IMG/VR virus record: IMGVR_UViG_3300007276_000222
Span: 1-28,313 of that record
Source: a virus
Strand: one strand, 5' to 3'
Length of the DNA stretch: 28,313 bases
The notes under the pieces are model-generated. The model had not been told where the DNA came from, did not search any database, and saw only the letters and a program-made list of their open reading frames with translations. A program made the translations under genes and the position numbers. Below are positions 2,810 to 27,200 of this stretch, piece by piece. Numbering within the stretch: position 1 is the stretch's first letter; every line of letters begins with the position of its first letter.

Positions 2810-3499
2810 ATGATCGTAGGTGAAAATTTCATATTTGTACAGGTACCGCGTACCTCTAGCTCCAGTATGTCCGGTTACCTATGTAGGACCTTGGACGTTG
2901 AGGCACCTTCTCAACACGGGTCTTTTCTGGATATGGATATGCCTACTGCTGGTAAAACTGTATTTTTATTTGTAAGAAACCCTTTTGAAAGGGAATTCAG
3001 TGAGTGGAAATACCATGCAGGCAAAAGAGGAGATGTACCACACAACCTCTCATTTACAGAATGGGTGTATTGGCGTTATGCTGACATGCCTCTTCCTGAA
3101 AGCTACTTTGGGAGACCTGGCGTCTCTGATTACCTAAGAACATTTTCGAGATACCCACAACTAGGTTGGATGCTGGATACCGAATGTAATCTAAAAACAG
3201 ATCTTATAGGTTTCTTTGAAACACGAAAAGAATCCACAGAAAGCATCCTTAGCGAACTAGGTATCCCCTTAGATTCGACATATCCTATTACTGAAGCAAG
3301 CCATCAACGTGTACCTACTTCCGACTACCGAAAATTCTACACAGCAAAAACAAGGAAGCTAATTGAGGACAGATACAAACCTGACCTTGAAGCTTTTGGT
3401 TACACTTTTGAAAGTAGAGAAGGTAATAAAAAAATAAACTTATCCGCTGTTTCAGATTTCTCTTTTGTGGAGAAAGTGGGCAGCTATTTACATAAATAA
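2810..3499 (+). CDS. Sulfotransferase-family protein
   Basis: 229 residues, ATG with TAGGA 8-9 nt upstream, 12 nt after the PhoH-like gene. Seen: an N-terminal phosphosulfate-binding-like loop FVQVPRTSSSSM (9-20), corresponding to the family pattern hydrophobic-x-x-P-(K/R)-T-x-x-(S/T)-S, and the second nucleotide-binding motif VRNPFEREFSEW (55-66) with R56 and S64 where PAPS sulfotransferases bind the 3'-phosphate. The C-terminus contains the family-like DLEAFGY pattern. The catalytic P-loop basic residue is arginine (R14) rather than the common lysine. Substrate is unknown: host surface glycans, phage tail glycans or a small molecule are possible. Its insertion between phoH and terminase, without a role in virion assembly, marks it as an auxiliary (moron) gene. 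Confidence 0.78.
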   Translation: MIVGENFIFVQVPRTSSSSMSGYLCRTLDVEAPSQHGSFLDMDMPTAGKTVFLFVRNPFEREFSEWKYHAGKRGDVPHNLSFTEWVYWRYADMPLPESYFGRPGVSDYLRTFSRYPQLGWMLDTECNLKTDLIGFFETRKESTESILSELGIPLDSTYPITEASHQRVPTSDYRKFYTAKTRKLIEDRYKPDLEAFGYTFESREGNKKINLSAVSDFSFVEKVGSYLHK

Positions 3500-3526
3500 T
3501 ATAATACTCAGAGATTGGAGAAGATT

Positions 3527-4867
3527 ATGAGTCTGACGTTACATGCCGGACAATCCGAGATCATCAACGATCTCTTTGTAGCAAAGAATTGCAGATACAG
3601 TGTTGTATGTGCCTCACGTGGTTTCGGTAAGTCTTACCTTGCCGCCACTGCTGCCATATTAGCCGTACAAGAATTAATGTCAATGCCTGCGCACATCCCA
3701 AACAAGAATGTAGCAATCATTGCGCCAACCTACCAGCAATGTGTAGACATATACTTCCCTCTAATAGCCTATCAAATGGGCATGGAGGACTACTGCGATA
3801 AAATGAGTCAGCATTCAGGTACTTTTTGGTTTCCTGGAAATGTAACTCTTAAGCTATGGTCTTACGAGGCCTCTCAGCGTTTACGTGGTAGCGGACAATA
3901 CTTTGTAGTACTGGATGAAGTTACATCATTTAAAGGTGCGGGTTCTACCTTCAAAGAATCCTGGGAATCAGTAGTACAACCTTGTATTACTACCCGTTGG
4001 AGTGAAGACAGAGCAGCGGATTTTAACGCACCGTCACCAGGACGAGCTTTGGTTATATCTACACCTATGGGCAAGGATTACTTCTATGAGATGTTTAACT
4101 TTGAAGAAAGGGATTCTCAGTGGAGGTCTTACCACTACACTTACAAAGATTCACCATACCTCGATGTAAAAGAGATTGAACGTACTAAACATACTATCGA
4201 TCACTTTCAATTTAAACGAGAGTATGAAGCGTCATTTGATGACTCAGGTAATACTGTGTTCTATAACTTTAACAGGTCTGCTCACGTAGACAGAGAGCTT
4301 GAGGAATTACAGCCAGGCGAAGATGCCCATATCGGTATAGATTTTAACGTCTCGATAATGGCATCTTGCTTATTCGCTTTACGGGGTGGACAAATGCATT
4401 TCCTTAACGAATTCCAAGGGCACCCAGATACCGAATGTCTCGCAAAAGACATCAAGAAAAAGTATATAGATAAAGGACATAAGGTTTTTGCTTATCCCGA
4501 TCCAAGTGGTCGAGCCAGAAAATCCAGTGCCGCTGTTGGCCGTACCGATTTCTCTATACTACAATCTTACGGTATACAAACACTGGCAAGAAGTAGAGCC
4601 CCAGGAATGGCAGACTCTGTACAAGCGGTTAACAGATTACTACTGAAAGGTGATGGTGCTATTAATATGTACTTTCATCCTCGTTGTAAGCACACGATAA
4701 AATCAATGGAAAGAACCGTTTGGAGAGAAAACAACCCAGACACTTTGACAATAGATAAGTCAGAAGGTATAGAACATTGGACGGACAGCGTACGATATTC
4801 GACCGAATTCCTCTTCCCTGTACAAGCAGGTACGAAGGTTACATCCAAACAATCAAACAATTTTTAA
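3527..4867 (+). CDS. terL: Large terminase subunit (ATPase and nuclease)
   Basis: 446 residues from the ATG at 3527, preceded by GGAG 6 nt upstream; a TTG four codons earlier is in frame but lies on top of this ribosome site. Seen: Walker A SRGFGKS at 30-36, Walker B FVVLDE with D130/E131, and a coupling motif region near the VISTPMG segment. The C-terminal RNase H-fold nuclease has acidic residues D272 (GIDFN), D325 (YPDPSG) and D420 (HWTDS). These fit a functional DNA-packaging motor that translocates and cuts concatemeric DNA at the portal. No small terminase is recognisable in the window; it may lie upstream of the window. The portal follows after one intervening endonuclease gene. Confidence 0.95.
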   Translation: MSLTLHAGQSEIINDLFVAKNCRYSVVCASRGFGKSYLAATAAILAVQELMSMPAHIPNKNVAIIAPTYQQCVDIYFPLIAYQMGMEDYCDKMSQHSGTFWFPGNVTLKLWSYEASQRLRGSGQYFVVLDEVTSFKGAGSTFKESWESVVQPCITTRWSEDRAADFNAPSPGRALVISTPMGKDYFYEMFNFEERDSQWRSYHYTYKDSPYLDVKEIERTKHTIDHFQFKREYEASFDDSGNTVFYNFNRSAHVDRELEELQPGEDAHIGIDFNVSIMASCLFALRGGQMHFLNEFQGHPDTECLAKDIKKKYIDKGHKVFAYPDPSGRARKSSAAVGRTDFSILQSYGIQTLARSRAPGMADSVQAVNRLLLKGDGAINMYFHPRCKHTIKSMERTVWRENNPDTLTIDKSEGIEHWTDSVRYSTEFLFPVQAGTKVTSKQSNNF

Positions 4868-5544: not shown

Positions 5545-7197
5545 GTGGCTAACGCAAATACAGCAGCTAACAACTCGAAGGCCGTTGGAGATCCCAACTC
5601 ACGCTACGAATCTTTAAAACCACTATGGCGCACAGCCCGTGGTATACTAAATGGTCAAAACCACGTAAAAGAACTTGATGCCAACTTAGACTCTTTTACC
5701 TTCACAAACATATTATTACCATTTAGCCCTTCGATGACCCCTGAACAATACTCGTTCTACAAGGCAGAAGCAGAGCTACCTGGATTAACCGCGCAATACA
5801 TTAAGGTATTAGTAGGCGGCATGCTACGTAAAGTACCAGAGATTACATTACCTGGAGATGTACCTGAAGGTGCTATGGACTGGCTAAAGAATACTTTTAC
5901 CTCACACGATAACTCTATGCTCTCTTTCTTAGATGAAGCATTGAGTGAAGAGCTACAGACTTCAAGAGCTTGGGTTATGGTGGATTACCCTACCGTACCT
6001 AATATGGACCTTCTTAGCTTAGAAGAGCGTAAGAAATTAGCTCCTTATCCTGTACTTTTAAAAGCAGAATCAGTAATCAACTGGAGAACAGGTGCCCACC
6101 CTCTTACGGGTTCACACTGTTTACTAGCTATTGTAATACGTACTTTCGAACAACATTATCGTACCAACCCATTACACCCTGACTACATAGATACTACTTA
6201 TGTACACAGATTGAATGAACAGGGTTTCTACGTTGTAGATAAATACGAATTAGATTCTACCGCTGAGAATGTACACTTTATTAATGGTGTAGAGCAGCAA
6301 GACTACCAAGTAACTGGCGGTATGCATGGTGCAAACAAGGGTAACAAGAGCAAATGGAAGTTAATAACTACCTTTGACAACATCTTGGCCAATAACAAAC
6401 CTCTAGATTACATCCCAGCATTACCTCTAAATGGCAATATACATGGTGAAGAGCCTGTACTTATGCCGCTTATCGACCGTGAAGTATCTCTTTATAACAA
6501 AGTATCTCGCAGAAACCATTTATTACTAGGTGCTGCTACTTATACCCCTGTTATTATGTCTGATATGACAGACGACAGTTTTGAAGATGTGGTATCAGCA
6601 GGTCTAGGTTCTTGGATCAAATTAGGGCAAGGCGATGAGATTAAAGCATTAGAAACGCCTTCGGCAGCACTACGTGACATGGAAACAGTAATTCAAAATA
6701 CTGTTAACGAGATGGCTCGTTTGGGTATCCGTATGATGGCAGCAGAGACAGGCGGCGGCAGAGATTCAGGTGTAGCACTTGAAATAAGAAACGCAGGACA
6801 GTCTGCTTTATTAGCTTCTATATCTACCAAAGTATCTCAGCAAATGCGTAAAGTCCTTTGTTGGATGATTAACTGGAGGTATGATACTGACTACAAAATA
6901 GAAGACATAAAATTTGACCTGACTCCAGATTTAAACCCAGCACCTATTGGCGCTGACTGGTTACGCCTGGTTACAGAATGGTACCAAACAGGACTTATAC
7001 CACGTTCAACTTTCCTTGACATTGCTAAGGCAAATGACATCATTGATTCAGATTATGATGATGAAAAAGGACAAGAAGAAATAGGCAAGGATGATTTGAT
7101 TATGGGCGGAGTGGATGCGCTACCTATGGATGACTTAGTCAACCGCATGTCAAAACAACCTGAAACAATTACTAATGAGGAAGATGAAGATGAGTAG
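5545..7197 (+). CDS. Portal protein (DUF4055 type)
   Basis: 550 residues starting at a GTG with GGAGG 5 nt upstream. Seen: the N-terminal region with the pattern YxSLKPLWRTARGILNGQ, an aromatic-rich segment near PFSPSMTPEQYSFYKAEAE, and a long alpha/beta core similar to phage proteins annotated as DUF4055. These occupy the portal position next to terminase and MuF genes. The length suits a portal subunit, which forms the dodecameric DNA channel bound by terminase and then by neck proteins. The C-terminus is very acidic (ends in EEDEDE). The stop codon overlaps the next gene, indicating coupled translation. The DUF4055 call is by recognition of pattern and by synteny rather than alignment. Confidence 0.85.
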   Translation: MANANTAANNSKAVGDPNSRYESLKPLWRTARGILNGQNHVKELDANLDSFTFTNILLPFSPSMTPEQYSFYKAEAELPGLTAQYIKVLVGGMLRKVPEITLPGDVPEGAMDWLKNTFTSHDNSMLSFLDEALSEELQTSRAWVMVDYPTVPNMDLLSLEERKKLAPYPVLLKAESVINWRTGAHPLTGSHCLLAIVIRTFEQHYRTNPLHPDYIDTTYVHRLNEQGFYVVDKYELDSTAENVHFINGVEQQDYQVTGGMHGANKGNKSKWKLITTFDNILANNKPLDYIPALPLNGNIHGEEPVLMPLIDREVSLYNKVSRRNHLLLGAATYTPVIMSDMTDDSFEDVVSAGLGSWIKLGQGDEIKALETPSAALRDMETVIQNTVNEMARLGIRMMAAETGGGRDSGVALEIRNAGQSALLASISTKVSQQMRKVLCWMINWRYDTDYKIEDIKFDLTPDLNPAPIGADWLRLVTEWYQTGLIPRSTFLDIAKANDIIDSDYDDEKGQEEIGKDDLIMGGVDALPMDDLVNRMSKQPETITNEEDEDE

Positions 7198-8388: not shown

Positions 8389-8430
8389 ATACACTAATTT
8401 TAAATATACCTACATAACGGGAGGCTCCAT

Positions 8431-11400
8431 ATGCCAAGCATCAATGATAAGATTTATGACCGCACTGTAGACCACTCGTCAATGGTAAGGCTCAACGAAG
8501 AGAACGTCCAAACAGATACCAAGCGTATAATTAGACGCCATCGTACTCGTCTGACTAAACAACTATCCGCAGGCAATTCCGTAGATAGAACTCGTACAAT
8601 GAAAGACATCATCCACCCTGAAGTCACACGTTTCACATCGGAGATGAACACTCACCTAGTAGGTGGTATGGAGGACTACGGATTAACCGAAGTAGACTTC
8701 ACTACAAACAATTTAAATAAAGCTATTGGTAAGTATGCAAACATACGTAGACCAGGAGCTACAAAGGTACTAGCTGAAATAGTAGGGGTTAACGTTAGAG
8801 GTGATGGTAATCTCGCTCAACGTATACAAAGCCTAGGCAGCGGCGAACTTACCAGGATGCAGACAGCAATCAACACAGGTCTGTCTAAGGGTTTATCGAA
8901 TAGCGAAATAATCCGTAACGTGGTAGGGAAGACTAGACTGACAGAGGCTCACGCTTCCGCTCTAGTACGTACCTCTATAACAAGAACACAAACGGTTGCA
9001 CAGCTAAATGTGCTTAAAGAAAACCGTGAAATTATGAAAGGTATTAGATTTACAGCGGTATTAGATAGCCGTACTTCTTCGATCTGTGCTCACCATGACG
9101 GTAAGGTTTACGATATTGATGATACCCGATTCATACCACCACTCCATTGGCGATGTCGTAGTACTCTGGTTCCGGTGTTAAAGTCACATAGTGAATTACT
9201 AACTAGTGCCTCTCCTGATATCAAGAAGGACGTGTTAAAGGGATTAAAGGCTTCCCAAGTGGCAAACCTTAACGGGGTGGCTCCTTCTAAAGAAGATTAC
9301 GGTACTTGGTTAAAAAGACAAAAACAAGAAGTAAAAATTAGACACTTCCAAGGCGATATACGAAAGGTAGAACTTTTCGATAATGGTCAATTACCTATAG
9401 AAAGTTTTACTACCTCAAGTGGTAAACCGCTTTCCTTAACTGCATTACGCCGACTGGATAATAAGAACACAAATACTACGCCAGTTAGACAAAAAGTGTT
9501 GAGCTCTAATGTAGTTAACGCGCTAGCAATCAACGCAGGCAGGCCCTCCTCCCTTATAAGAAGTGCAGCAGTTGAAGATGAACTACGCTTATTCTTTAGA
9601 GCAGAGGCTCACAATGTACACTCTAATCTGTCCCTGACAGACTTCCGGGGTACTTCGGTTCCTGGTAAGAAAGGTACAAGACGTAGAGCCAACAACCAGT
9701 TCGATGAGAGAAACACAGGCGTTGACCCTTTGACAGGTGAGACTAAATCGACTCTCGTTTATGATCCTGATTTTAAAGTACTACAAGAGCGTATGGATTA
9801 CCTAGACACTTCTAAGCTACTAAGTCAAGACCAAAAGAACTTTATTAAACGATTTGCACTGTCTATGGAAAATGATGGAGTCTCTGTCAATCAGCAATCC
9901 GTTATCATTGAGAACCTACGTGTTGTCATGGAGCGATTCGCTAAGGATAAGAAACCATGGGATAACCTTGCTGCGGTATTAAGAGCAGAGCTTAAAAACT
10001 CTGTTGTCAACGTATCCAGGGTACTAGACAGACGTTCTCGTTCTCGTTCACAGGTCTATAAGTTTGGAGCTAGCGGGGAAGATGCAAAGATACAAATAAT
10101 GGGTGAATGGACTACTTTCAATGAGATAGCTGAGAGAACTCTAAAGAACCAAAGATATGTAACTAACTGGGCAGCAACAGAAGGGATTGGTCTAGCAAGA
10201 AAAAGCTACTTAGGTGGTCGTTCTCCTTTGCGAAATTATTTTCCAAAGCTACCCAACATTCTACCAAAGTTCCCTGATGCGAAAGCTATCATTATTAAAG
10301 AAATTGAAAAGATACCTTTTGGTAAAGCGTTTGTGCGTAGATGGAAAGGTATACCTTCTGATAGTGCTATCACCAAATTCCTACAAGCAGGTACTGAGCG
10401 AAAGCGCAGGTTCCTAGATTTGGAGTGGTGGTATACTAAGAAGAAGGCTGACTTCATACAAGAATCAGCAACTCCTGAGTTTATAAAAGATAGAACTAAG
10501 CTAATGTCTGAGATTATGAAAGACGTTGCTACAGGTCAATCTTCTGACTATGATAGTCTTTCTATACAAATAGGTAAGAAGCTACATGAAGCAGAAGTAA
10601 GAGACTGGGAAGTATTCTTTAAAGCTCCTACTCTTGGTGAATACCATAAAATGGGTTCTAACATTCTCACTGGTCTAAAGGCACAAGGTAAAATCAAAGT
10701 AGGATTACGAGGTGTAACCCGCAGAGGTGTTATCGATTTAGATAGTGGACGTAATGAGATAGGTTCATTTAAAGACACTATAGCTAGAGAGGTACAAATA
10801 GTAGACCCTACTATGCTCAAGTTACAACGAGCTAACCGTGAGCTTATCTATTCAAGACGGATAGGTATAATTAAAGAACAAGACCGTTTAGTTGTTAAGG
10901 CAGGCGAGAAGAAGTTTTTCGATACCCGTGGTAACAAGACTGATGTTAGCGTCATCACACGTAAGGCTGGTGGTAACTACGAAAAGAACCTTGTTGATAA
11001 AGATTTTTCTGAAATGCTCAATCACGTAATGGATGCTGAGTGGGAAGTAGATACAGACTTCGCAGGCTTCTTTGATGACCTGGCGCACTTTCGTGACCCT
11101 AGAGGTCAAGTAGCTAAGTATGATGAGCTTAATAGCTTTCGTAAAGTTATATTACAACGTGGTGAGCAAGGCATGGGTATGATGCAATCTTTAAGGTGGC
11201 ATTTACAAAACAAAACATCATGGCGCACTTGGGCTCAGATAGATGGACGTGGACGAGTTTACACCCAGGGTTATTTACATCCTGCTGGTGGTGAGTTTGT
11301 TCGACCTTTCTTAAACACCAAAATAGCCAAGAATATTAATGAATCAGTTTTACTAGAATTAAAAATACAATTAGGTAACCTAACAGGCGAAGCATTCAGT

Positions 11401-12882
11401 GTTTTAACTAACGAAGGAAGATTAGCTTCATTTGCTGCCAGAGAGAAACAACTGCGAGAGATCGGAGAGCTATTGTTATCTAAAACTCAAAGACAGGGTC
11501 GCATCAGACAGTTTCTGGAGCATCCCCTAGTTAGAGAGATTGAAGCAGAAGAATTACCTAAATTAGCCAGATTCGCATTAGAGTACACTCGTATCCACAA
11601 TCATGTAGATGGCGATTTCACTAATGTTAAAAAGCTAAGAACGTATAAGACACAACTCGGTAATGAAAACGATGCATCAGCATCTGGAGCACAGTTAATA
11701 GCGTTATCCACTAGGGATAGAGCGTTAGCCGAAGCTTCCAATGTACTTGCGACTGGTCGTAAGAATCGTTTATATGACCTTGTAGCAGAAAGAACAATGT
11801 CTGACCCTCGATTTAGGGCTATAAACCCTATTGGTAATGACATCGACTTTGGTGACCTTGCAAAAGGAGCTAAGGGACAATCGATGGTTGCATTTTATGG
11901 GGCAGGACAAGCAACACAGGCAGCAGCTATAGAAGGTAAACTAGCTAAAATACTCACCAAGAAAGACTATGTAGTCATATCAGGGGCTGAACTCCGTGAG
12001 TTTAATCGGTCCATAGATAGTGCCATTAAGAAAGCAGATGGTGATAAAGCTACACAAGTATCTGCCTCTCTAAAAGAATTAAAAAGAGAAGCAAACTATG
12101 CTATCAACAACAACGCACCTATCGGAAACAAGCTCCTTGCTATGGCACAGGACATGCATCCCGATTCTGCTGTATTTGTTAGCAAGTTGACCAACGTCAA
12201 GGGCGGCTTAATCGGACCTAATCAGTTCAAGAAAGTTGCTGAAATAATGAGTGGGCATTTGAAAGATATTGCTCCTGTTACAGAAAAGTTTGTATCATTC
12301 TGGAAAGACGTTGCGAAAGTATACATCACGGAATCCAAAGAGGTTGATATCCCTTGGGTCACGATGGATGGTAAACTTTTATTTCAACGCTATAGACCCG
12401 TTGTTCAAGAAAGGATCGAATTTACTGACCCTGTAACTGGACGAAAGGTTTCAAATATCTACGAAGATACTATAACCGATAGCAAGTTTATCGGTAAGCA
12501 GTCTATTATAGGAGCTCGTAGTGGTTTAGGAGTAAACGGCAATCATATGAATGATGCTACAATCGTAAGGAAATTCCATTTATGGGGCAAGAAGAATCGT
12601 ATTCTGACTGCAACTATTCACGATGGTTTCTTTACAAACCTTGCTGACTCTGTTGACGCTAAATTCGCATTACGTGATATTTATGCTGATGCAATAGACG
12701 GTGAATCTCTCCTAAACACTTTAAAGGCAATGAGAAAAAGAGGACTCTCTGAGGAATCTTACCGAATGCTCTTAGCGAAAGCAGAAGCAGACGGCTTACT
12801 GAACAGTAAAAATGGCATTACTGCCAAAGAAATACGTGCTAAAATCCCTGATGGTTGGGATTGGTATGGCATCGGACCGTGA
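8431..12882 (+). CDS. MuF (SPP1 gp7-like) head protein fused to T7/N4-type single-subunit RNA polymerase
   Basis: 1483 residues, ATG with GGGAGG 6 nt upstream, one uninterrupted frame. N-terminus: MuF domain at about 150-250 with FTAVLDSRTSSIC (C219, H221) and the signature PPLHWRCRS (H239, C242), typical of minor head proteins bound at the portal. Residues about 260-650 are an unassigned helical linker. The C-terminal half aligns by eye with T7 RNA polymerase: LN-x6-W-x-V at 863-873 (T7 helix before the palm), DGRGRVY 938-944 (T7 D421-Y427; R942 for R425), DASASGAQ from D1081 (D537), K1148-x7-Y1156-G (K631/Y639), WVTMDG 1309-1314, NHMNDA around H1372 (H784), and IHDGF with H1397/D1398 (H811/D812). 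All catalytic residues are kept. The A-B gap is shorter (67 versus 94 residues) and B-C longer (250 versus 181) than in T7. Probable packaged virion RNA polymerase. It lies between portal/terminator and scaffold, the normal MuF position. Confidence 0.9.
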   Translation: MPSINDKIYDRTVDHSSMVRLNEENVQTDTKRIIRRHRTRLTKQLSAGNSVDRTRTMKDIIHPEVTRFTSEMNTHLVGGMEDYGLTEVDFTTNNLNKAIGKYANIRRPGATKVLAEIVGVNVRGDGNLAQRIQSLGSGELTRMQTAINTGLSKGLSNSEIIRNVVGKTRLTEAHASALVRTSITRTQTVAQLNVLKENREIMKGIRFTAVLDSRTSSICAHHDGKVYDIDDTRFIPPLHWRCRSTLVPVLKSHSELLTSASPDIKKDVLKGLKASQVANLNGVAPSKEDYGTWLKRQKQEVKIRHFQGDIRKVELFDNGQLPIESFTTSSGKPLSLTALRRLDNKNTNTTPVRQKVLSSNVVNALAINAGRPSSLIRSAAVEDELRLFFRAEAHNVHSNLSLTDFRGTSVPGKKGTRRRANNQFDERNTGVDPLTGETKSTLVYDPDFKVLQERMDYLDTSKLLSQDQKNFIKRFALSMENDGVSVNQQSVIIENLRVVMERFAKDKKPWDNLAAVLRAELKNSVVNVSRVLDRRSRSRSQVYKFGASGEDAKIQIMGEWTTFNEIAERTLKNQRYVTNWAATEGIGLARKSYLGGRSPLRNYFPKLPNILPKFPDAKAIIIKEIEKIPFGKAFVRRWKGIPSDSAITKFLQAGTERKRRFLDLEWWYTKKKADFIQESATPEFIKDRTKLMSEIMKDVATGQSSDYDSLSIQIGKKLHEAEVRDWEVFFKAPTLGEYHKMGSNILTGLKAQGKIKVGLRGVTRRGVIDLDSGRNEIGSFKDTIAREVQIVDPTMLKLQRANRELIYSRRIGIIKEQDRLVVKAGEKKFFDTRGNKTDVSVITRKAGGNYEKNLVDKDFSEMLNHVMDAEWEVDTDFAGFFDDLAHFRDPRGQVAKYDELNSFRKVILQRGEQGMGMMQSLRWHLQNKTSWRTWAQIDGRGRVYTQGYLHPAGGEFVRPFLNTKIAKNINESVLLELKIQLGNLTGEAFSVLTNEGRLASFAAREKQLREIGELLLSKTQRQGRIRQFLEHPLVREIEAEELPKLARFALEYTRIHNHVDGDFTNVKKLRTYKTQLGNENDASASGAQLIALSTRDRALAEASNVLATGRKNRLYDLVAERTMSDPRFRAINPIGNDIDFGDLAKGAKGQSMVAFYGAGQATQAAAIEGKLAKILTKKDYVVISGAELREFNRSIDSAIKKADGDKATQVSASLKELKREANYAINNNAPIGNKLLAMAQDMHPDSAVFVSKLTNVKGGLIGPNQFKKVAEIMSGHLKDIAPVTEKFVSFWKDVAKVYITESKEVDIPWVTMDGKLLFQRYRPVVQERIEFTDPVTGRKVSNIYEDTITDSKFIGKQSIIGARSGLGVNGNHMNDATIVRKFHLWGKKNRILTATIHDGFFTNLADSVDAKFALRDIYADAIDGESLLNTLKAMRKRGLSEESYRMLLAKAEADGLLNSKNGITAKEIRAKIPDGWDWYGIGP

Positions 12883-13028: not shown

Positions 13029-13682
13029 ATGGATAACGATAATATGAATGAAAATAACGAAGCAAACCAAGCATCTGCTTTAGACTCTGAAGAACTACAA
13101 AAAATCATCCAAGCAAAAGTGGATGAAGAGCTTGCTAGTATCAAAGAGAAACTAAACAGCGCTTACTCTCAACGTGATGAAGCTATACAAAAGTCTGTTT
13201 CTTTTGAAGAAGAAAAGAGACTTAGCGCGATAGCTCAACTAGAAGAAGATGGTAAGCACAAAGAAGCATCTGACATGAAGCTTACAGAAATTACTGCTAA
13301 ATTGGCAGCAAGAGACAAACAGATCGTTGAGTTAACACGAGACGGTGCTGTACGTAGTGCTCTTAAGGGCTTAGACTTCCGTAACGATACAGCAGCAGAA
13401 TTTGCCTATCGGGACGTGGTATCTCAATTAACACAAAATGAGAATGGTCAGTGGGTGCATAAAACTGGCGCTTCTGTTAAGGATTTCATTGACAGTTTCC
13501 GTAAGGACGATGATAAAGAGTTCTTATTTAAACCAAAGCAATCTTCTGGAACAGGACAAGCAGCAATGCAATCCCCAACTGGAAGTTTCGACACTAACAA
13601 ATCACTAGCAGAAATGACTACTGAAGAGATAATGACAGCAGCAGCTGCAGGACATCTTGACGGTAGTGGCAAGTGGTTGTAA
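13029..13682 (+). CDS. Capsid scaffolding protein
   Basis: 217 residues, ATG with AGGAG 9 nt upstream. Seen: a Asn/Glu-rich start, a long charged coiled coil (about 20-105, with repeated KIIQAKVDEEL and EEEKRLSAIAQLEE-like heptads), a small ordered part (about 108-160), and a Gly/Ser/Thr-rich linker leading to a short acidic helix and a C-terminal GSGKWL tail. This is the usual build of HK97-fold scaffolds, whose C-terminus binds the coat. It sits directly before the major capsid gene. No maturation protease is seen in the window, so scaffold is more likely to exit intact than be cleaved by a phage protease encoded here. Confidence 0.85.
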   Translation: MDNDNMNENNEANQASALDSEELQKIIQAKVDEELASIKEKLNSAYSQRDEAIQKSVSFEEEKRLSAIAQLEEDGKHKEASDMKLTEITAKLAARDKQIVELTRDGAVRSALKGLDFRNDTAAEFAYRDVVSQLTQNENGQWVHKTGASVKDFIDSFRKDDDKEFLFKPKQSSGTGQAAMQSPTGSFDTNKSLAEMTTEEIMTAAAAGHLDGSGKWL

Positions 13683-13726: not shown

Positions 13727-14911
13727 ATGGCAATTTCTTCAAGTGCATTCGGCACATTAAATAAAGCAATCTCAGCTTACTCAGATGAGATGTATACTCG
13801 TGCAAAGAAAATCGTATCAACTTCGATTATCGGTCAAGACGCACAAATCAAAGCAGACGGTGAAGACTTCATCGGTCAAGTTCGCTTCTACAAGCCACTT
13901 GGCGCATACGCAGTAGGTGGCGTTAACGCTACTGAAAACGTTGCTGGTTCTAACAATGCAGTTGTTAACGTAGCTAGCCAAGATGAAAATCATGGTGGCA
14001 CTACTAACATCCAAACTGAAGTACAGACTTACATCAAAACTGTCCGTACTCACGGTGCTAACGAATATTTAGTTCAAAGTGTTATCTCTGGCGAAGACGG
14101 CTTAGCCAAGATCGCTCGTGACTTCGCTGAAACTCGTGCTGAAGATGAAGATCAATCATTACGTAGCTGTTTAGCTGGTGTTATGAACACTGAGCTTAAA
14201 ACTGCTAACGACTTGGCAGGTTCTACCTACTCAGAAGCCTTCGCTGGCAACTCTGTAGATGGTGACAACTCTAAAGCTTTCGCTTACGTTGCTGCTTCAA
14301 GCGACACTGTTGGTACTGGTTCTAGCTTAGAAGGCTTAGTAGATTTAACTGCTAGCTCTCCTGGACAACGTGTTGAACATTTAATTCGCGCTATGGGTGC
14401 ATGGTCTGACTACACTCCAGATTTCGTATACTTAGTAGTTTCTCCTGAAGTTTACCTAGATATCAAAGTTGCCAACTTAGTTGATGACGAACGTATCACT
14501 GATGGTAACATCTCTTTTGAAACTTTATTAGGCGGTGTTATTCGCGTAATCGTTTCTCGCAACTTCGGCCAAGGCCTAGGCGCAGTAACTCACGCAGCAC
14601 TTTCTGGTGTTACTTCTATCACAACTGCTAAAGTATCTTACATGATGCTTCCTGGTTCTATCTTCATGCACAGCACAAGCATTGCTAACCCTGTTGCTAT
14701 GGATCGTAACGAGAGCGTAGGTTCTGGTTCTGGCCGTACTACAGCTTGGTACCGTTGGGGCTATGTTATGCATGCACGTGGTTACAGCTTCGCTGGTACT
14801 CAAGATGCTTTCGCTACTAACGCTTCATATGCTGGTACTGCTGCGACTCCTACTTGGACTCGTAAAGTTGACCTTCTTAACCTTGGTATCTTACCAATTT
14901 TCCACGCCTAA
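13727..14911 (+). CDS. Major capsid protein (HK97-like)
   Basis: 394 residues, ATG with TAAGG 9-10 nt upstream. The position straight after the scaffold, the size, the Ala/Gly/Thr/Val-rich composition and the strongly biased codon choice (many ggt, gct, cgt, aac) indicate a very abundant structural protein. The N-terminus (ISAYSDEMYTRAKKIVS) is helical, and the centre has the alternating beta and loop pattern of coat proteins (QTYIKTVRTHGANEYLVQS; FVYLVVSPEVYLDIKVAN). The fold is inferred from context; there is no obvious propeptide or cleavage site. Confidence 0.9.
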   Translation: MAISSSAFGTLNKAISAYSDEMYTRAKKIVSTSIIGQDAQIKADGEDFIGQVRFYKPLGAYAVGGVNATENVAGSNNAVVNVASQDENHGGTTNIQTEVQTYIKTVRTHGANEYLVQSVISGEDGLAKIARDFAETRAEDEDQSLRSCLAGVMNTELKTANDLAGSTYSEAFAGNSVDGDNSKAFAYVAASSDTVGTGSSLEGLVDLTASSPGQRVEHLIRAMGAWSDYTPDFVYLVVSPEVYLDIKVANLVDDERITDGNISFETLLGGVIRVIVSRNFGQGLGAVTHAALSGVTSITTAKVSYMMLPGSIFMHSTSIANPVAMDRNESVGSGSGRTTAWYRWGYVMHARGYSFAGTQDAFATNASYAGTAATPTWTRKVDLLNLGILPIFHA

Positions 14912-18226: not shown

Positions 18227-21200
18227 ATGAGTTTAGAAATTGAAATCAAAAGTAATTCTAAACAGGCTGAAGCTAGTCTTAAGCGCCTTCTGTCAACTCT
18301 CGATGAACTCCCTACTTCTGTAAGGAAAAGCGGTGCAGAAATATCCAGCTTTTCTAAAGATGTCTCTAATGATCTAAAGGCCATAAACAAAAATGTAGAA
18401 AAATCCGGTAAAAGCTTACAAAACACAGTACGCAGCCTTAGCACCTTTGCTAAGATCACCGGGGGGCTTATCACAAGTCTGCTTGCGGCAGGAGGAATCT
18501 CTAGCCTAAGCTCACAGTTTACAGAACTCAATAACAGAATTGCACTTACTACAGGTAGAACAGGGCAATTAGTCGTACAACAACAAAAACTATTCGGCAT
18601 AGCTCGTAGGAGCAATGTTGATTTAGAAACTACAGTCAACTTATATTCAAGCTTAGTTGTCAACGCGCAACGTGGCAGAAAAGAAGCCACTGCGCTTACC
18701 GAAGTGCTCATCAAGGCAGGTAAAATTGGTGGTGGTCCTGCAGCAACAATCTCTGCTTCCCTAACGCAGCTACAACAAGGCTTAGCAGCGGGTACTCTCA
18801 GAGGTGACGAGCTTAACTCTGTACTTGAAGGAACTCCGCGTATTGCACAAGCAATCGCTAAGGAGTTGAAAACAACCGTTGGCCAACTGAAGAAGCTTGC
18901 CGAAGAAGGAAAGATTTCTGGAGATACAGTAGCTAACGCATTACTTAATGCCAAGGATGATATTGAAGCAGAATTTGCTACTCTGAAAATTCCTTTTAAC
19001 CAGATCATTGCAAACTCTGGTAGAGAACTCGGTATCTCTCTGAATAGACTGTTTGGCACAGTCTCAGATACCCTCAAAACAATTACTGGTGGAGAGGATA
19101 TTGTACAGAACTTAACAGCAGGAATCACTAACGCTATTGACAATATATCAGTGTTCCTAAGAGTTATACAAACAGATATCTTACTACTTAAATTAGAGTT
19201 TGGAAGCCTAGAAGGCGCTGTTGTAAATAGCTTTAAGCGTATGGTAGACGGAGTAGTTTCTTACGCTAGTCGCCTATTCGGCGCTCTTGATGCGGTTAAA
19301 TCTTTTGCAAAGAGCGTAGGTACTATCTTCTACGACTTGTATATCGAAATTGTAGGTAACTCTACTTGGCCGGACCTAGTAAATGGGGTAGTTGATTACA
19401 CAGACAACTTAAACAAAGCAGCAACTAAAGTTAATTCGTTTGCAGCTAAAGCAGGTGGCATCTTCGCTAGTTTGCGAGATAAGATAAAGGATGCATTTGA
19501 AGGTATAGTTTTCCCTAGTACCGAAGGTTTCCAAACCTTCCTAAAAAAGATACAAAATGGTATTAAACTTTTTGTAAACAAATTAACTTCTTTTGCTGTA
19601 GTAGGGATAATTGGAGCACTAGCTGCTGCCTTGACCGCTGCTTTCGCGATAGCAGTTATAGGAGGAGGCTTCGCTGGCTCCTTAGGCGCTAAGATTGCTA
19701 CTGCTTTCATTGGAGTAGTCGGGGCTTACCTCATAGGTATTGTAGACTCATTTGATATGGGAAGAGCTACCTCTTCTGGTCCAATGAATGAGCTTCTTGA
19801 GAGTCAAGTAAACATTTTGTTAACTATCGCTCACGGGATTAGCGCGCTTGTCTCAGGTGCAGCACCTTTAATGCCTACTGATAGTCTAGAAAAGGTAATG
19901 AACTTCCTTAGTGAGAACATAATAGCCGTTGCGGCGAGCTTACCTATCCTGGTTGCTGCTATAAAAACTATGGTAGCCGCAGGAGCGACAGGTGGTTCAA
20001 GCATACTTAACCCCCTCGGCGGTGCTACTAAAGCCGTGGGTCAAAACCTCGGCGATGTTTGGCAAGGAAGAGCGGCTGGCGGTTTTATTCGAGGACTACA
20101 AGCCCAAGGCCAGCTGTTAAACGCCGAACTTGGAGGTTTAAAAGAATCTATACGAGGACAGAAACTGAGATTAGAATCTGAGTTATCAGGATTAGCTACT
20201 ACGTCAGCGAGAGCCAATAAGATAAACCAGGAGCTAGTTGGGCTGAAAGCGCAAGAGAAAGCCGAAACCACCAAACTTGTTAATTCGATACAAATGAACC
20301 AAAAGAAGTTGCAGATTAACTCACAACTACTAGACGGTCCTAATTCTAGGCTCAAAGAAACACTATCCGCAGCTATCGGTGCTTTCGGTAGGTTAGGCGG
20401 AATGATAGGTGGAACGGTAGGTGGTTTCCTGGGCGCGGGTATGATGGCTAAAGCCGCTAAGACATTTGGCATGAACAGCGCTGAGACTATGATTAGTGTT
20501 CTCATAGCAGCACAGCTTGGACAACTAATAGTAGGGAGTATTGTTCAGGCGATCTTTCAAGTGACCGCTGCTACATTTCAGATGCTAATTACAGGCCTAC
20601 TAACCCCAATGATTACGAGTGTGTTTGTTGGCGCAGGTAAGGCATTACTATTCATCGGTAAGGGCTTCGTATTACTTACAAAAACTCTCCTGGTTGCTAT
20701 GCGTGTAGGCATTTTAGCGGGCGCAGCAGCTCTGAGAGTTGGCATTATGGCCTCATTCGTAGCCGTAAGAGCCATTATGATAGGCGCACAGATCGCAGGA
20801 GCTACCGCAGGCGCAGCTATTACGCTAGCAGCTTCCTCTATAATGACAGCGTCCTCACTTGTTTTCCTCGCTGCTGTCCAAGGCGCTGCATTCTTATTAG
20901 CAATGGCTCCGATAAGTGGTATGGCTCTTCTTGTTATTGGACTTGTAGCAGCACTTGTAGGGGCAATTGCCGTTATTGCATACCTGCTTAGCGATGAGAT
21001 AATGGCAGCAGGCGAAGTTCTGATGGGATACATTAGAGCTGGATTTGACTTCCTCGAGGAGGTAGGTCGTAAACTAGGTGGTGCTATATTTGAAGGTATG
21101 ACGTGGTTAAAAGAAGCAGGTACTACTTTCGCGGATTCCATACTCGATGGTTTAAGTGGTCTAGTAGACCTCGCTTCGGAGATGGGTTCTACTATCCTCT

Positions 21201-22978
21201 CTTACATCAAGAGTGCCTTCGGTTTCGGCGGTGGATCAGACACTAAAACAAATGAAAAACCTATAGCACCTGTTAAACGTGCAAATGGCGGTTCTGTATT
21301 TGGTGCAGGCTCAGCTACTTCAGATTCTATTCCCGCTATGTTGTCTAATGGCGAGTTTGTCATGAAGACATCAGTGGCATCTGAACATCGCCCCTTCTTA
21401 GAACAGCTTAACTCCACAGGTAAACTTCCAGGTTTCGCTGGTGGCGGTAGTGTAGGTAGCTCTAGCAGTGCAACCTCTTCTGGCGGTGGCGGTGTGTTAA
21501 GTGGAATGGGTGATTTATTCATGTCGGCACTTGAATCATTAGGGTCCATGCTTGAGTCTCTTCTTGGTAAAGAGAACTATGCCAGTGTATCTAAGGTTAT
21601 CTCTGGATTAAAAGATACTATCTTAAAAGGTTTTAATGCTTTCGGTGGAGATAGTTCAAAGGCTAGTGATAGTATATTTAGCGCTGATGATCTCATTATC
21701 TCGTTGACTAAAACGTTATCAGATCAAACACTAGACACTGACGTCTTAGCAAAAGAACTTGCTGAAAATGCTAGCTTGACTAAGAGACTTTTGGATCTTA
21801 GCGATAGTCGTAATAAGGTACAAGCTAAGATTTTTGAGATGGAGAAGCGTAACGAGAAAGTACCTCTCCAACTGTTAAGCCAACTTAAAATCTTGGATAA
21901 CGACCTTATCACCCAATTAGGAAATGTATCTGCTATCCTCGAAGATGTTGCAGAAAATACTAAGGTAGTGATTCCCGCAATTGCAGCACTGGCTTCAAAA
22001 GGAGTTGGTAAAATTAAGGGAGATGTAGAATCAGGTATCGGAGGTCTGCTTAAAGGCGAGACTGACTTTAAGGGTTTTGCAAATGGTCTGTTAGACTCTT
22101 TCACGGGTACTGTATTAGATACTTTAGCTAGTGGTATTACTGAAAGTATCTTTAATAACGTAGACGGTGAAGCTAGCGATTTCTCAAAAGCACTAGAAAC
22201 TATGTTTTCTGATATAGGCATGCTAGGTTTTGGCGGCGAGGAAGGCGGTGGTATACTCTCTTCTCTTGGCGGAATCTTTGGCTTTGGCGGTGGAAAGGAA
22301 GATAAAGCACCAAGTAAAGGTGGCAGTGCCGGAGATTACACAGGTGGCGCTTTCGCAGCTTTCGCAGGAGACAAAAGCGAAGGTGGTAGTGCTAAAGATT
22401 ACACAGGTGGCGCTTTCGCAGCTTTCACAGGAGGCGGCGCAGGTGCTGCTGAAGGAGCAGGTGAAGGAGTAGAAGCAGGTATGGACGCAGGTGCTGGTAG
22501 CATCGGTAAAATATTCGATGGCTTTTTACCCGGATTAGGTGGCTTGTTCGATGGGCTACTCGGTGGCTTTGGCGGTGTTTTCAGTGGCTTACTAAGTTCT
22601 CTTGGCGGCTTATTTGGCGGCGGTGGAGGTGGTGGTGATCTACTAGGTTCTCTTGGCGGCTTATTTGGCGGCGGTGAAGGTGGCGGCGGTATATTCTCTG
22701 CTATTGGTGGATTCTTCAATGATGGCGGCTTAGTACCTGGTGGCGGACCTACTCCTGTAATTGCTCATGGTGGGGAAATGATTCTCAACAAAAGGCAGCA
22801 ATCTAATCTTTTCGGTGAACTTGACCGTTCAAGAAATGGACAAGCAGGAAATCAACAGCAAATAAGCATTAATGTCACAGGTGATATCTCACGTCAAACT
22901 AAGAAAGAAATCTATAGTATGATGCCGACTATCGCTCAAGGTGTTAACCAACAAAATAAAGAACAAAACAGAAAATAA
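18227..22978 (+). CDS. Tape measure protein
   Basis: 1583 residues, ATG with GGAGG 8 nt upstream. Seen: an N-terminal coiled coil (about 5-75), the tape-measure N-terminal domain (about 75-260) with the family-like pattern LQQGLAAGTLRGDELNSVLEG, hydrophobic membrane-like stretches at about 455-510, 565-585 and 795-920, and a C-terminal Gly-rich half. The motif SDSIPAMLSNGEFVM (about 1034-1048) and the end motif PTPVIAHGGEMILN recur in tape-measure C-termini. At about 0.15 nm per residue the protein predicts a tail near 240 nm. The hydrophobic block probably enters the host membrane for DNA delivery. Two in-frame tandem repeats lie near the C-terminus. Confidence 0.93.
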   Translation: MSLEIEIKSNSKQAEASLKRLLSTLDELPTSVRKSGAEISSFSKDVSNDLKAINKNVEKSGKSLQNTVRSLSTFAKITGGLITSLLAAGGISSLSSQFTELNNRIALTTGRTGQLVVQQQKLFGIARRSNVDLETTVNLYSSLVVNAQRGRKEATALTEVLIKAGKIGGGPAATISASLTQLQQGLAAGTLRGDELNSVLEGTPRIAQAIAKELKTTVGQLKKLAEEGKISGDTVANALLNAKDDIEAEFATLKIPFNQIIANSGRELGISLNRLFGTVSDTLKTITGGEDIVQNLTAGITNAIDNISVFLRVIQTDILLLKLEFGSLEGAVVNSFKRMVDGVVSYASRLFGALDAVKSFAKSVGTIFYDLYIEIVGNSTWPDLVNGVVDYTDNLNKAATKVNSFAAKAGGIFASLRDKIKDAFEGIVFPSTEGFQTFLKKIQNGIKLFVNKLTSFAVVGIIGALAAALTAAFAIAVIGGGFAGSLGAKIATAFIGVVGAYLIGIVDSFDMGRATSSGPMNELLESQVNILLTIAHGISALVSGAAPLMPTDSLEKVMNFLSENIIAVAASLPILVAAIKTMVAAGATGGSSILNPLGGATKAVGQNLGDVWQGRAAGGFIRGLQAQGQLLNAELGGLKESIRGQKLRLESELSGLATTSARANKINQELVGLKAQEKAETTKLVNSIQMNQKKLQINSQLLDGPNSRLKETLSAAIGAFGRLGGMIGGTVGGFLGAGMMAKAAKTFGMNSAETMISVLIAAQLGQLIVGSIVQAIFQVTAATFQMLITGLLTPMITSVFVGAGKALLFIGKGFVLLTKTLLVAMRVGILAGAAALRVGIMASFVAVRAIMIGAQIAGATAGAAITLAASSIMTASSLVFLAAVQGAAFLLAMAPISGMALLVIGLVAALVGAIAVIAYLLSDEIMAAGEVLMGYIRAGFDFLEEVGRKLGGAIFEGMTWLKEAGTTFADSILDGLSGLVDLASEMGSTILSYIKSAFGFGGGSDTKTNEKPIAPVKRANGGSVFGAGSATSDSIPAMLSNGEFVMKTSVASEHRPFLEQLNSTGKLPGFAGGGSVGSSSSATSSGGGGVLSGMGDLFMSALESLGSMLESLLGKENYASVSKVISGLKDTILKGFNAFGGDSSKASDSIFSADDLIISLTKTLSDQTLDTDVLAKELAENASLTKRLLDLSDSRNKVQAKIFEMEKRNEKVPLQLLSQLKILDNDLITQLGNVSAILEDVAENTKVVIPAIAALASKGVGKIKGDVESGIGGLLKGETDFKGFANGLLDSFTGTVLDTLASGITESIFNNVDGEASDFSKALETMFSDIGMLGFGGEEGGGILSSLGGIFGFGGGKEDKAPSKGGSAGDYTGGAFAAFAGDKSEGGSAKDYTGGAFAAFTGGGAGAAEGAGEGVEAGMDAGAGSIGKIFDGFLPGLGGLFDGLLGGFGGVFSGLLSSLGGLFGGGGGGGDLLGSLGGLFGGGEGGGGIFSAIGGFFNDGGLVPGGGPTPVIAHGGEMILNKRQQSNLFGELDRSRNGQAGNQQQISINVTGDISRQTKKEIYSMMPTIAQGVNQQNKEQNRK
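22319..22433 (+). repeat. 63-bp tandem repeat inside the tape measure gene
   Basis: About 52 nt (22319-22370) recur at 22382-22433 with a few differences, period 63 nt = 21 codons. They encode two copies of GGSAxDYTGGAFAAFxG. The shared part ACAGGTGGCGCTTTCGCAGC is exact. In-frame period points to recent internal duplication. Confidence 0.85.
22596..22676 (+). repeat. Second in-frame glycine-rich repeat in the tape measure gene
   Basis: A 30-nt exact repeat starting GTTCTCTTGGCGGCTTATTT at 22596-22625 and 22647-22676, period 51 nt (17 codons), encoding SLGGLFGGGxGGG twice within a Gly-rich segment (about residues 1450-1490). Confidence 0.8.
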
Positions 22979-23738: not shown

Positions 23739-24286
23739 AAAATACACCCAGCTCAATAATTTCTGCTTTAGTATCAGGATTATCACAGCCCTACCTCCTA
23801 CTCGATATGGAGTTTACTGGCGGCACTGTTAGGTTAACCGATCTACCTTTCAGCATAGATGTTGGTGGTAATACTTATATATCCGATGGCGGTTTATCTG
23901 AACTTGAACCACCTCGACTTACTTCTATACTTGATAGAGAAGTATATCGTATTAAATTACTAGATTTCAATAATGAATTTAAGGCTTACTTTGATGCAAA
24001 CGCATTAGGTACCCCTGTTACCGTTCGATTAGGTATTGAGGGAAACTACACAGACCTTGATACAGTCTACAAAGGACGTATCGATGGTGTCTCGATCGAA
24101 ACCAATCCAGCAGAAGGATCAAAGAATGCCGTTATAGAATGTTCTTCCCCCTTCGCAGCATTGGACAGGACTAACAATCGTATGACAGATAAAAATTATC
24201 AACGTAACATCGATGTATTCGATTCCTCAATGGATCTGGTATACGCCGCTGCTAAAGAAACAGAAGTCAAATGGGGTAAAAAATAA
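23735..24286 (+). CDS. Distal tail/hub assembly protein (DUF2163-like N-terminus)
   Basis: 183 residues, ATG overlapping the short upstream ORF. Seen: an early strand LLDMEFTGGTVRLTDLP (about 22-38), a glycine turn with NTYISDGGLSELEPP, a middle region ending VYKGRIDGVSIE (about 112-123), and a C-terminal CSSPFAALDRTNNRMTDKNYQ (about 137-157) that resembles tail proteins which precede the hub in lambdoid-type clusters. The stop TAA overlaps the ATG of the hub gene (TAATG). Probable role: hub assembly below the tape measure. Confidence 0.68.
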   Translation: MKNTPSSIISALVSGLSQPYLLLDMEFTGGTVRLTDLPFSIDVGGNTYISDGGLSELEPPRLTSILDREVYRIKLLDFNNEFKAYFDANALGTPVTVRLGIEGNYTDLDTVYKGRIDGVSIETNPAEGSKNAVIECSSPFAALDRTNNRMTDKNYQRNIDVFDSSMDLVYAAAKETEVKWGKK

Positions 24287-27200
24287 TGGCATGGAGTCTT
24301 GTAATAGCAATTGTTTCTGCGGTATTCACTTACTCGAAACAAGCCAAAATGAAAAAAAGGATGGAGGCAGATGCGCAAGCGCGTAAAGGCTTCCTAGCAA
24401 CCGTCACTGGTGAAACACGGTCCCTTCCCATATGCTACGGTAGGAACAAAGTAGGAGCAGTACTTACCGCAGCAAAAACATCCTCTTCTTATACGTATGA
24501 CGGTACACTACCAGCAGGGACTAAGCAGTGGTCTGTTAGAGACATGGGTGCCAGTATAACTCACAGCAAATCAAAATCAAGGCGTAACCAGTTCTTAACA
24601 TGCCAATATGCTGTATGTCAGGGAGGTATAGAAAGCTTTACACATATAGAAGTAGATGATCAAGACTTCCATAATGAATCCCTGCATTTCGGGCAGATGC
24701 TACGTACCTTCCCAGACGGAGGGATAGCTGACCCCTTGGCCACTGCCAATGGTATGAATGCTAATAACAAGTTTACAGAGATTGCCTATTGTACTGGTAT
24801 ATTCCACTTAGACAATAATGAACCTCAGTACTCTGGTATACCAGCTATGAGCTTCTTCATAAAAGGAAAGAAGATTCCTAATATCGGGAGGATTGGTAGT
24901 CCTGGTGCTTATTTCTATTCTTATAATCGTGCAGGTACTTTAACATATTCTAACAACGCTGCGCTGGTACTACTAGATTACTTGACTGCCCACTACGGCA
25001 TGGGGCTAGCATTAGAAGATGTTAACCTAGAGTCCTTCTATAATGCCGCTGTCCTTTGTGCTTCGACTGTCAACCCTGAGTTAGGGCTGGGCGGATTCGC
25101 ACGACAAGGTAAGATTGATGGCGGTAATTACTTCGATAGCGCAACGTCACCTTCGTGGCATGCATCGGGTGTGAATTTGTCCACTCAGCAGAATGTTGAC
25201 TACTTAGAGCTTGAATCTAGTAATGATGTTGAGGTAAGTATAGAGGACTTTGGAACAGACTTCATTAATGGCACAGGTGTGTTTGCCGCTTCAGATGCAG
25301 GCGGTTTGTCGTTCCATAGAGGTGGAGACAATATATACAGCATAACCGAAACCGTTGGCGCTTACTATGAGGCGTCTACTAATACTTTCAATATACCAAT
25401 ATCAAGTATCGTCCCAGGTCCTAATGCGGATGTTATTGATATCAATACTGAGTTCCTTGTACAGGAATCCTCACTGGTATGGGTAGAGACGATAACACCA
25501 GCAGATACACTACCGTTATACGAGTGTAATGTAACTCTAGATCCATCAAAACCTGTAAGGGATAACGTAGATGAGATTCTACTGGGTATGGGTAATGCGG
25601 ATCTGGTATGGTCGGAAGGCAAGTATAAGCTACAGCTACAGTACCCTGCAACCCAAGCTGAACTAAAAGCTAGCGCAGAGGGTACCCTTATAATCACAGA
25701 TGACATATTACGTACATCAGAGATTAAAATTAGCTATCCTAAAGCCACAGAACGTTTGAACCAGTGTACAGTCAATTATAGAAATGAGCAAGAAGATTTT
25801 AGTTCAGCAAGTGCTACTTGGCCTCCAACAGGCTCTGCTCTACATGACCAACTCTTAGCTGAGGATAATGGGGTTGTACTGAATGCTGCGCTAACTATAG
25901 ACGCTATCGTAGACCCTTACCACGCTACTTCAAGAGCAGAGCAATTTGTTCGTGAGTCCAGGCGCTCTGTCATATATGAATTTGAGACATTCGCTGAGGC
26001 CTACAATCTGGAACCGGGTGACTACATAAAGTTCAACTCAGTTCTAAATGATCTAACAAGTGATGACGATACCGCATTGGTAACAGGAGTTACCCTTACT
26101 GAGAACATGACCGTAAGGATTGAGGCTTTCCGTGTTAACGCTACTGATTTGTCATGGAACATAGCAGATACGGTAGCCAGTACATATCCACCTATCGTTA
26201 GTTACAAGACCTTCCCACCATTCATATCTAACACCGCTATTCCAGTAATAGACTTAGACACTGATACAGTGACTGGTTACTATGTAGATGAAGATAAACA
26301 ACGGGTATTTATTCGTTGGGATGGAGATGTGTTCGGCAGCCAAGTAGACAAGTATATTGTTGAAGCTCGTGAGAATGCTGCCACAGATGACAACCAATGG
26401 GTAACTATTAGTGAAACCTCAAATGAGATAACTTACCACATACCCGGAAACCCGCAGCTTGATATATACTACCGTATTAGGTCAGTTAGCCTAACAGGAA
26501 AGAGGTCTACCAACTCAGTTGTAATTGGACCTGTAAACGTTTCTAATATCAGCCTCAAAGGTGCTGAGGGAGTCAAAGGAGACTTAGGGCCTGAGGGCGT
26601 TAAAGGTATCCAAGGTACCCAAGGTATCCCAGGTGACCAAGGCGTTAAAGGTGAGATAGGAGATAAAGGCATACAAGGTCTCCAAGGTGAACAAGGTGAT
26701 AAAGGTCTCAAAGGTATCGTAGGTTTCCAAGGTCTCCAAGGTGAACAAGGTCTCCAAGGTGACAAAGGCCTCAAAGGTATCTTAGGTTTCCAAGGTCTAC
26801 AAGGTGCCCAAGGCCTCCAAGGTGACAAAGGTATCAAGGGTATCATAGGTTTCCAAGGTCTCCAAGGTGCCCAAGGTCTTCAAGGTCTACAAGGTGACAA
26901 GGGTATCAAAGGTGTTTTAGGTCTTCAAGGTCTTCAGGGTCTTCAAGGTGACAAGGGTCTCAAAGGTATCTTAGGTGCCCAAGGTCTCCAAGGTCTCCAA
27001 GGTCTACAAGGTCTACAAGGTGACAAGGGTATCAAAGGTGTTTTAGGTCTTCAAGGTCTCCAGGGTCTTCAAGGTGACAAGGGTCTCAAAGGTATCTTAG
27101 GTGCCCAAGGTCTCCAAGGTCTCCAAGGTCTACAAGGTCTCCAGGGTGACAAAGGTATCAAAGGTGTTTTAGGTCCACAAGGTCTCCAGGGTCTCCAAGG

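Follow-up and report, generated by a model that had tools for sequence, protein, structure and literature searches.

A MuF head protein fused to a T7-type RNA polymerase is a candidate virion RNA polymerase of aquatic long-tailed phages

What is a polymerase doing at the end of a phage head protein? The question is raised by a viral stretch of 28,313 nucleotides (IMG/VR record IMGVR_UViG_3300007276_000222, positions 1 to 28,313), which was analysed over its whole length and is called the window below. One of its open reading frames (ORFs), of 1483 residues and about 164 kDa, had been read from the sequence alone as a MuF head protein joined to a T7/N4-type RNA polymerase (RNAP) and likely packaged in the virion. 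Profiles, structure prediction, fold search and conservation agree that both halves stand in this single frame, and the residues quoted in that sequence-only reading are all present at the positions it gave. No convincing internal start that would free the polymerase alone was found within the ORF.

The polymerase half was assigned by sequence profile and by modelled fold. Pfam RNA_pol (PF00940) matched residues 1065-1437 above its cut-off (E=2.4e-5; 23.8 bits against 22), as anticipated for a T7-type enzyme, and a PHROG RNA polymerase family matched the fusion protein with E=3e-21. T7 RNAP was the sole polymerase match in a sequence search of solved structures, and profile comparison with it in hhalign gave a probability of 95.4% (E=1.6e-8). 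An AlphaFold (AF2) model of residues 380-1483, computed with 44 relatives as input, had a mean pLDDT of 83 and a pTM of 0.76. Foldseek matched this model best to T7 RNAP among solved structures (prob 1.00, E=2e-19), together with mitochondrial RNAPs; TM normalised to T7 RNAP was 0.46-0.56 and overall identity to it about 14%. Among viral models, a DSS3_VP1-like homologue of 1463 residues ranked first by fold (E=1.5e-96), with T7-like RNAPs following from 4e-20 and N4-like virion RNAPs from about 8e-12. Kinship with N4 was rejected, as the N4 mini-vRNAP domain gave an hhalign probability of 0.1 and N4-like virion RNAPs fell below T7-like RNAPs by fold. Because T7 RNAP leads the fold and profile matches while the N4 mini-vRNAP profile gives nothing, the predicted enzyme is T7-like and, by profile comparison, not of the N4 lineage; the T7 part of the original label holds and the N4 part is dropped. 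Origin by recent duplication of a second RNAP of the same phages (see below) was also rejected, the profile match being weak (E=0.043). The polymerase fold was also matched by the 'coil containing protein' of Vibrio phages 1.152.O and 1.169.O (BFVD A0A2I7RBA8, A0A2I7REM6), possibly unannotated virion RNAPs.

Conservation of the predicted active site was assessed by aligning 61 diverse members of the family, drawn from two distant clades. The equivalents of T7 R425, D537, K631, Y639, H784, H811 and D812 are invariant in all of them. Within the polymerase core, 81 of 550 positions are invariant (14.7%), and the chance of finding seven of seven is P=1.2e-6.

For the MuF half, Phage_Mu_F (PF04233) matched residues 143-246 with E=1.8e-13 (51.6 bits against a curated cut-off of 29.6), as the sequence-only reading had led us to expect, and phrog_241 (head morphogenesis) matched residues 1-345 with E=2e-57. 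C219, H239 and C242 are invariant in 77/77 loci covering these positions. A fold search of the MuF half against solved structures gave nothing significant, so this assignment rests on sequence profiles.

The fusion is not confined to this contig and is shared by hundreds of related viruses. One search of IMG/VR recovered 560 related stretches and another 48 loci of an EBPR-like clade, and the majority of sufficiently long loci carry the fusion as one open frame. It is also present in three isolated or sequenced phages. The roseophages DSS3_VP1 (gp108) and DSS3_PM1 (Naomviridae) have full-length homologues with 45.6% identity to the window protein; in EBPR siphovirus 1 the homologue is gp47+gp49 (~30% identity), and a group I intron carrying an HNH gene splits the coding sequence at motif B. 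The public name in DSS3_PM1 is 'minor head protein-like protein', and the records checked say only head or hypothetical protein. In the marine clade, 72 of 90 loci (every locus counted, repeat retrievals of the same sequences included) cover the entire protein, and L056 and the intron-split L017 are the only ones with in-frame stops. Since most of these loci span the whole fusion, the frame is not an assembly artefact. The window is itself a metagenomic contig, which leaves room for two genes fused by assembly or annotation; however, the intact fusion recurs in isolated DSS3_VP1 and DSS3_PM1 and in dozens of independent open-frame contigs, and an artefact is barely conceivable. No prophage or cellular copy was found in the sequenced bacterial and archaeal genomes or plasmids searched, which fits lytic phages. 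The closest MuF protein by tblastn that has no polymerase match, of 633 residues, adjoins capsid genes in Pelagibacter phage Kolga (L166:5998-7899).

In the EBPR clade, the polymerase half is repeatedly broken by group I introns; some phages have several in one gene, and the insertion sites include motif B and the vicinity of motif C. Introns at active-site motifs point to a strongly conserved, presumably functional polymerase. In the loci L108-L155 of this clade (e.g. L155:8339-17063), where the MuF-RNAP gene is intron-split, the phages often have a split gene for their second RNAP as well. Separately, in-frame inserts of ~130-150 residues lie just upstream of motif A in L143 (6077-6525), L130, L144 and L151. 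Their sequences are of two or more unrelated kinds. Since neither a Pfam match nor features of an intein were seen, a reading as inteins was rejected.

The second polymerase is a distinct enzyme. DSS3_VP1 gp080 is a canonical T7-like RNAP (Pfam E=8.5e-83), and its DSS3_PM1 counterpart is annotated as such. Canonical second RNAPs were also found in the marine IMG/VR contigs G003 and G007 and in 8/8 EBPR-clade contigs of 64-104 kb (G013-G020). Two single-subunit RNAPs per phage are thus common in this lineage. DSS3_VP1 further contains 13 strong copies of a 24-bp element, AATAGGGTGCGTTAAAGAGGGGGA; every one is on the + strand, and many lie just upstream of genes (L016/L091, e.g. record positions 2332, 7407, 19236, 29395, 45925 and 59195). 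Copies related to its core, AGGNNACGTTAAAGA, are present in contigs L046, L051, L054 and L158; the window holds no credible copy of such an element. As the element resembles a T7-type promoter, it is most simply assigned to gp080 and is probably read by it. The region of DSS3_VP1 that holds the second RNAP gene (38.5-45.9 kb) has no strong elements. This fits a cascade, yet the gap is no larger than others and was not counted as proof.

How would a polymerase tethered to MuF be used? The order terminase large subunit, portal, MuF-RNAP, scaffold, major head protein, tape measure protein was kept in 26/26 loci checked in both clades, as far as the contigs reach, and the module around SPP1 gp7 has a matching gene order (PMC6316719). 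SPP1 gp7 is taken into the procapsid by the portal, and MuF proteins have been proposed to deliver their C-terminal cargo when the phage infects (PMC6316719, PMC5512222). In phage P23-45, a virion RNAP fused to a structural protein transcribes pre-early genes, including the gene of a non-virion RNAP (PMC10770324). With the fixed slot after the portal gene, the MuF cargo precedents and the second RNAP of large-genome relatives, the earlier proposal of a packaged virion RNAP is well supported by inference. We consider it highly likely that the fusion protein is a virion RNAP carried by MuF, which docks at the portal, leaves the head together with the genome and transcribes the first genes, that of the second polymerase among them. 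During head assembly, the N-terminal MuF domain would bind the portal and draw a few copies into the procapsid, by analogy with SPP1 gp7. At infection, the protein would exit through portal and tail along with the DNA, and its C-terminal T7-type polymerase would transcribe the first phage genes without host RNA polymerase. In larger-genome relatives, where the gene for a second canonical T7-like RNAP is present, that enzyme would be one early product and would then transcribe the middle and late genes, probably using the 24-bp element in DSS3_VP1. This sequence of entry, first-gene transcription and handover is suggested because P23-45 follows the same logic.

The late position of the gene is open to another interpretation. 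The fusion gene sits among late genes, and the protein could be packaged or head-associated while its polymerase acts in the producing cell, in late transcription or in DNA packaging at the portal. This we regard as unlikely: in relatives the canonical second RNAP is already there for late transcription, a polymerase meant for the cytoplasm would be oddly tethered by a covalent bond to MuF, and MuF fusions elsewhere have been proposed as delivery vehicles (PMC6316719, PMC5512222). A delivered polymerase might also prime DNA replication, or pull the DNA in by transcription, rather than serve early expression as such. T7 RNAP does both, and entry driven by transcription could go hand in hand with the expression of early genes; DSS3_VP1, however, encodes its own primase/helicase and a T7-like DNA polymerase, and replication or entry as the proper role seems very improbable.

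Several points weigh against a virion RNAP carried by MuF. Packaging, ejection, polymerase activity and promoter choice rest on inference. To our knowledge, ejection of SPP1 gp7 itself has never been demonstrated. The window and its closest relatives, all of them fragments, showed no second RNAP, and neither did EBPR siphovirus 1 (54 kb, partial). Likewise, no promoter for the virion RNAP was identified by a search for N4-like hairpins in DSS3_VP1 or by the element scan of the window; the hairpins were rejected as candidates, with only four perfect stems of at least 7 bp genome-wide and the listed one (8 bp, 1579) inside gene gp005. Finally, the arginine of motif B (T7 R627) is not conserved. 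Its position is occupied by Ala1144 in the window and by Ala, Ser, Arg or Gln across the family, with Arg in 13 of the 16 EBPR-clade members tested. The statement that all expected catalytic residues are present was thus slightly too strong: it holds for the seven named and fails for this arginine. Ala1144 lowers the certainty of catalysis and not that of the fold assignment, because the remaining catalytic positions are all in place. Together with the low overall identity to T7 RNAP, it would suit a polymerase half that has lost catalysis or taken on another role and serves only as cargo, either DNA-binding or structural. Such a loss of function is most improbable, since both metal-binding aspartates and the active-site Lys, Tyr and His are invariant across the two distant clades and introns insert at the active-site motifs.

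If a MuF-borne virion RNAP is correct, N4 gp50 and P23-45 gp96 would be joined by a third structural solution for bringing a phage-encoded RNAP into the cell, and the MuF slot would deliver more than toxins. We know of no earlier case of a T7-type enzyme so carried in long-tailed phages. It would also explain how these phages could begin transcription without host promoters, which is relevant to the DSS3 phages, in whose DNA uracil replaces thymine. A protein that public phage records misannotate would gain a function. DSS3_VP1, a phage in culture on Ruegeria pomeroyi DSS-3, offers a direct test. N4-like virion RNAP modules have been described as confined to N4-like phages or prophages (Iyer et al. 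2017). In the large lineage of aquatic long-tailed phages formed by the Naomviridae and their EBPR-like sister group, virion RNAPs probably evolved independently of N4, through a T7-type enzyme fused to a portal-docking MuF protein, and a cascade of two T7-type polymerases probably passes from the virion enzyme to the non-virion one. The literature searched contained no account of a MuF-RNAP fusion, although the paper describing the Naomviridae (Rihtman et al. 2021) may hold a prior mention. To that extent the novelty claimed for the architecture stands; a virion RNAP fused to a structural protein has a precedent in P23-45 gp96 (PMC10770324).

The features of the window are collected in Table 1. 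Genes follow in the order HNH endonuclease, holin, PhoH, sulfotransferase-like, terminase large subunit, homing endonuclease, portal, small ORFs, MuF-RNAP, scaffold, major head protein, connectors, tail, tape measure and collagen-like fibre. The sulfotransferase-like gene (2810-3499; phrog_3347, E=3.5e-11) lies between PhoH and terminase. Ahead of the holin gene, 400 bp without an ORF of at least 60 residues (1190-1595) contain the direct repeats GGAGACTATTA. The tail fibre (24286-28311) has collagen-like repeats, and the 11-mer CAAGGTCTCCA occurs 18 times in the window.

Table 1. Positions of the fusion gene, its domains and motifs, and neighbouring genes in the window
Feature	Positions	Strand	Evidence or remark
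MuF-RNA polymerase fusion protein, 1483 aa	8431..12882	+	strong RBS GGGAGG ~8419-8424 ahead of ATG 8431
MuF (SPP1 gp7-like) domain, residues 143-246; C219, H222, H239, C242	8857..9168	+	Pfam PF04233
Linker and RNAP N-terminal region, residues 247-880	9169..11070	+	conserved throughout the relatives (41-46% identity in distant ones); AF2 model covers from residue 380
Single-subunit RNA polymerase core, residues 881-1430	11071..12720	+	Pfam PF00940; hhalign and Foldseek to T7 RNAP
Motif DGRGRVY, residues 938-944; R942 = T7 R425	11242..11262	+	D938, R940, R942, Y944 invariant in 61 sequences
Motif A, DASASGAQ; D1081 = T7 D537	11671..11694	+	
Motif B, DLAKGAKGQSMVAFYG; K1148 = T7 K631, Y1156 = T7 Y639, A1144 at T7 R627 position	11854..11901	+	
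H1372, T7 H784 equivalent	12544..12546	+	
Motif C, H1397-D1398 = T7 H811-D812	12619..12624	+	beta-turn-beta in AF2 model
Terminase large subunit	3515..4867	+	phrog_2 E=3.5e-35
Portal protein, presumed MuF docking partner	5545..7197	+	phrog_145 E=7e-54; upstream of MuF-RNAP in 26/26 loci
Scaffolding protein	13029..13682	+	phrog_206 E=1.2e-9
Major head protein	13727..14911	+	phrog_247 E=2.8e-21
Tail tape measure protein (long-tailed phage)	18227..22978	+	phrog_3519 E=1.2e-47

Virion RNAPs are already known as a kind, and the strategy proposed here resembles those of N4 gp50 and P23-45 gp96, while the carrier and the enzyme lineage differ. SPP1 gp7 and the MuF polymorphic toxins share the N-terminal MuF domain, the portal-adjacent gene and the C-terminal cargo (PMC6316719, PMC5576092), in agreement with what had been said of toxin cargo in other phages. 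The cargos described there are toxins or effectors of temperate phages, whereas no prophage copy of MuF-RNAP was found, and the text of PMC5576092 makes no mention of a polymerase. T7 RNAP (Autographiviridae) is closest in fold and profile and has motifs T/R, A, B and C in common, but it is made early in the cell, is not fused to a virion protein and has R627 where MuF-RNAP has Ala. N4 gp50 (Schitoviridae) is likewise a single-subunit RNAP in the virion, as expected here, in a phage that encodes a second T7-like RNAP. In contrast, MuF-RNAP has no profile match to the N4 polymerase domain and no N4 injection or metallopeptidase regions; its motif C is HD as in T7, its delivery would be by MuF, and its phages are siphoviruses where N4 is a podovirus. 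P23-45 likewise joins an RNAP to a structural protein of the virion, and it shares a second, non-virion RNAP (gp64) and a long tail (PMC10770324). In its gp96, a two-barrel, cellular-like RNAP forms the N-terminal part of the tape measure protein, whereas the T7-type RNAP here forms the C-terminal part of a MuF head protein. The true homologues of the window protein are DSS3_VP1 gp108, its DSS3_PM1 counterpart and gp47+gp49 of EBPR siphovirus 1, all annotated without a polymerase.

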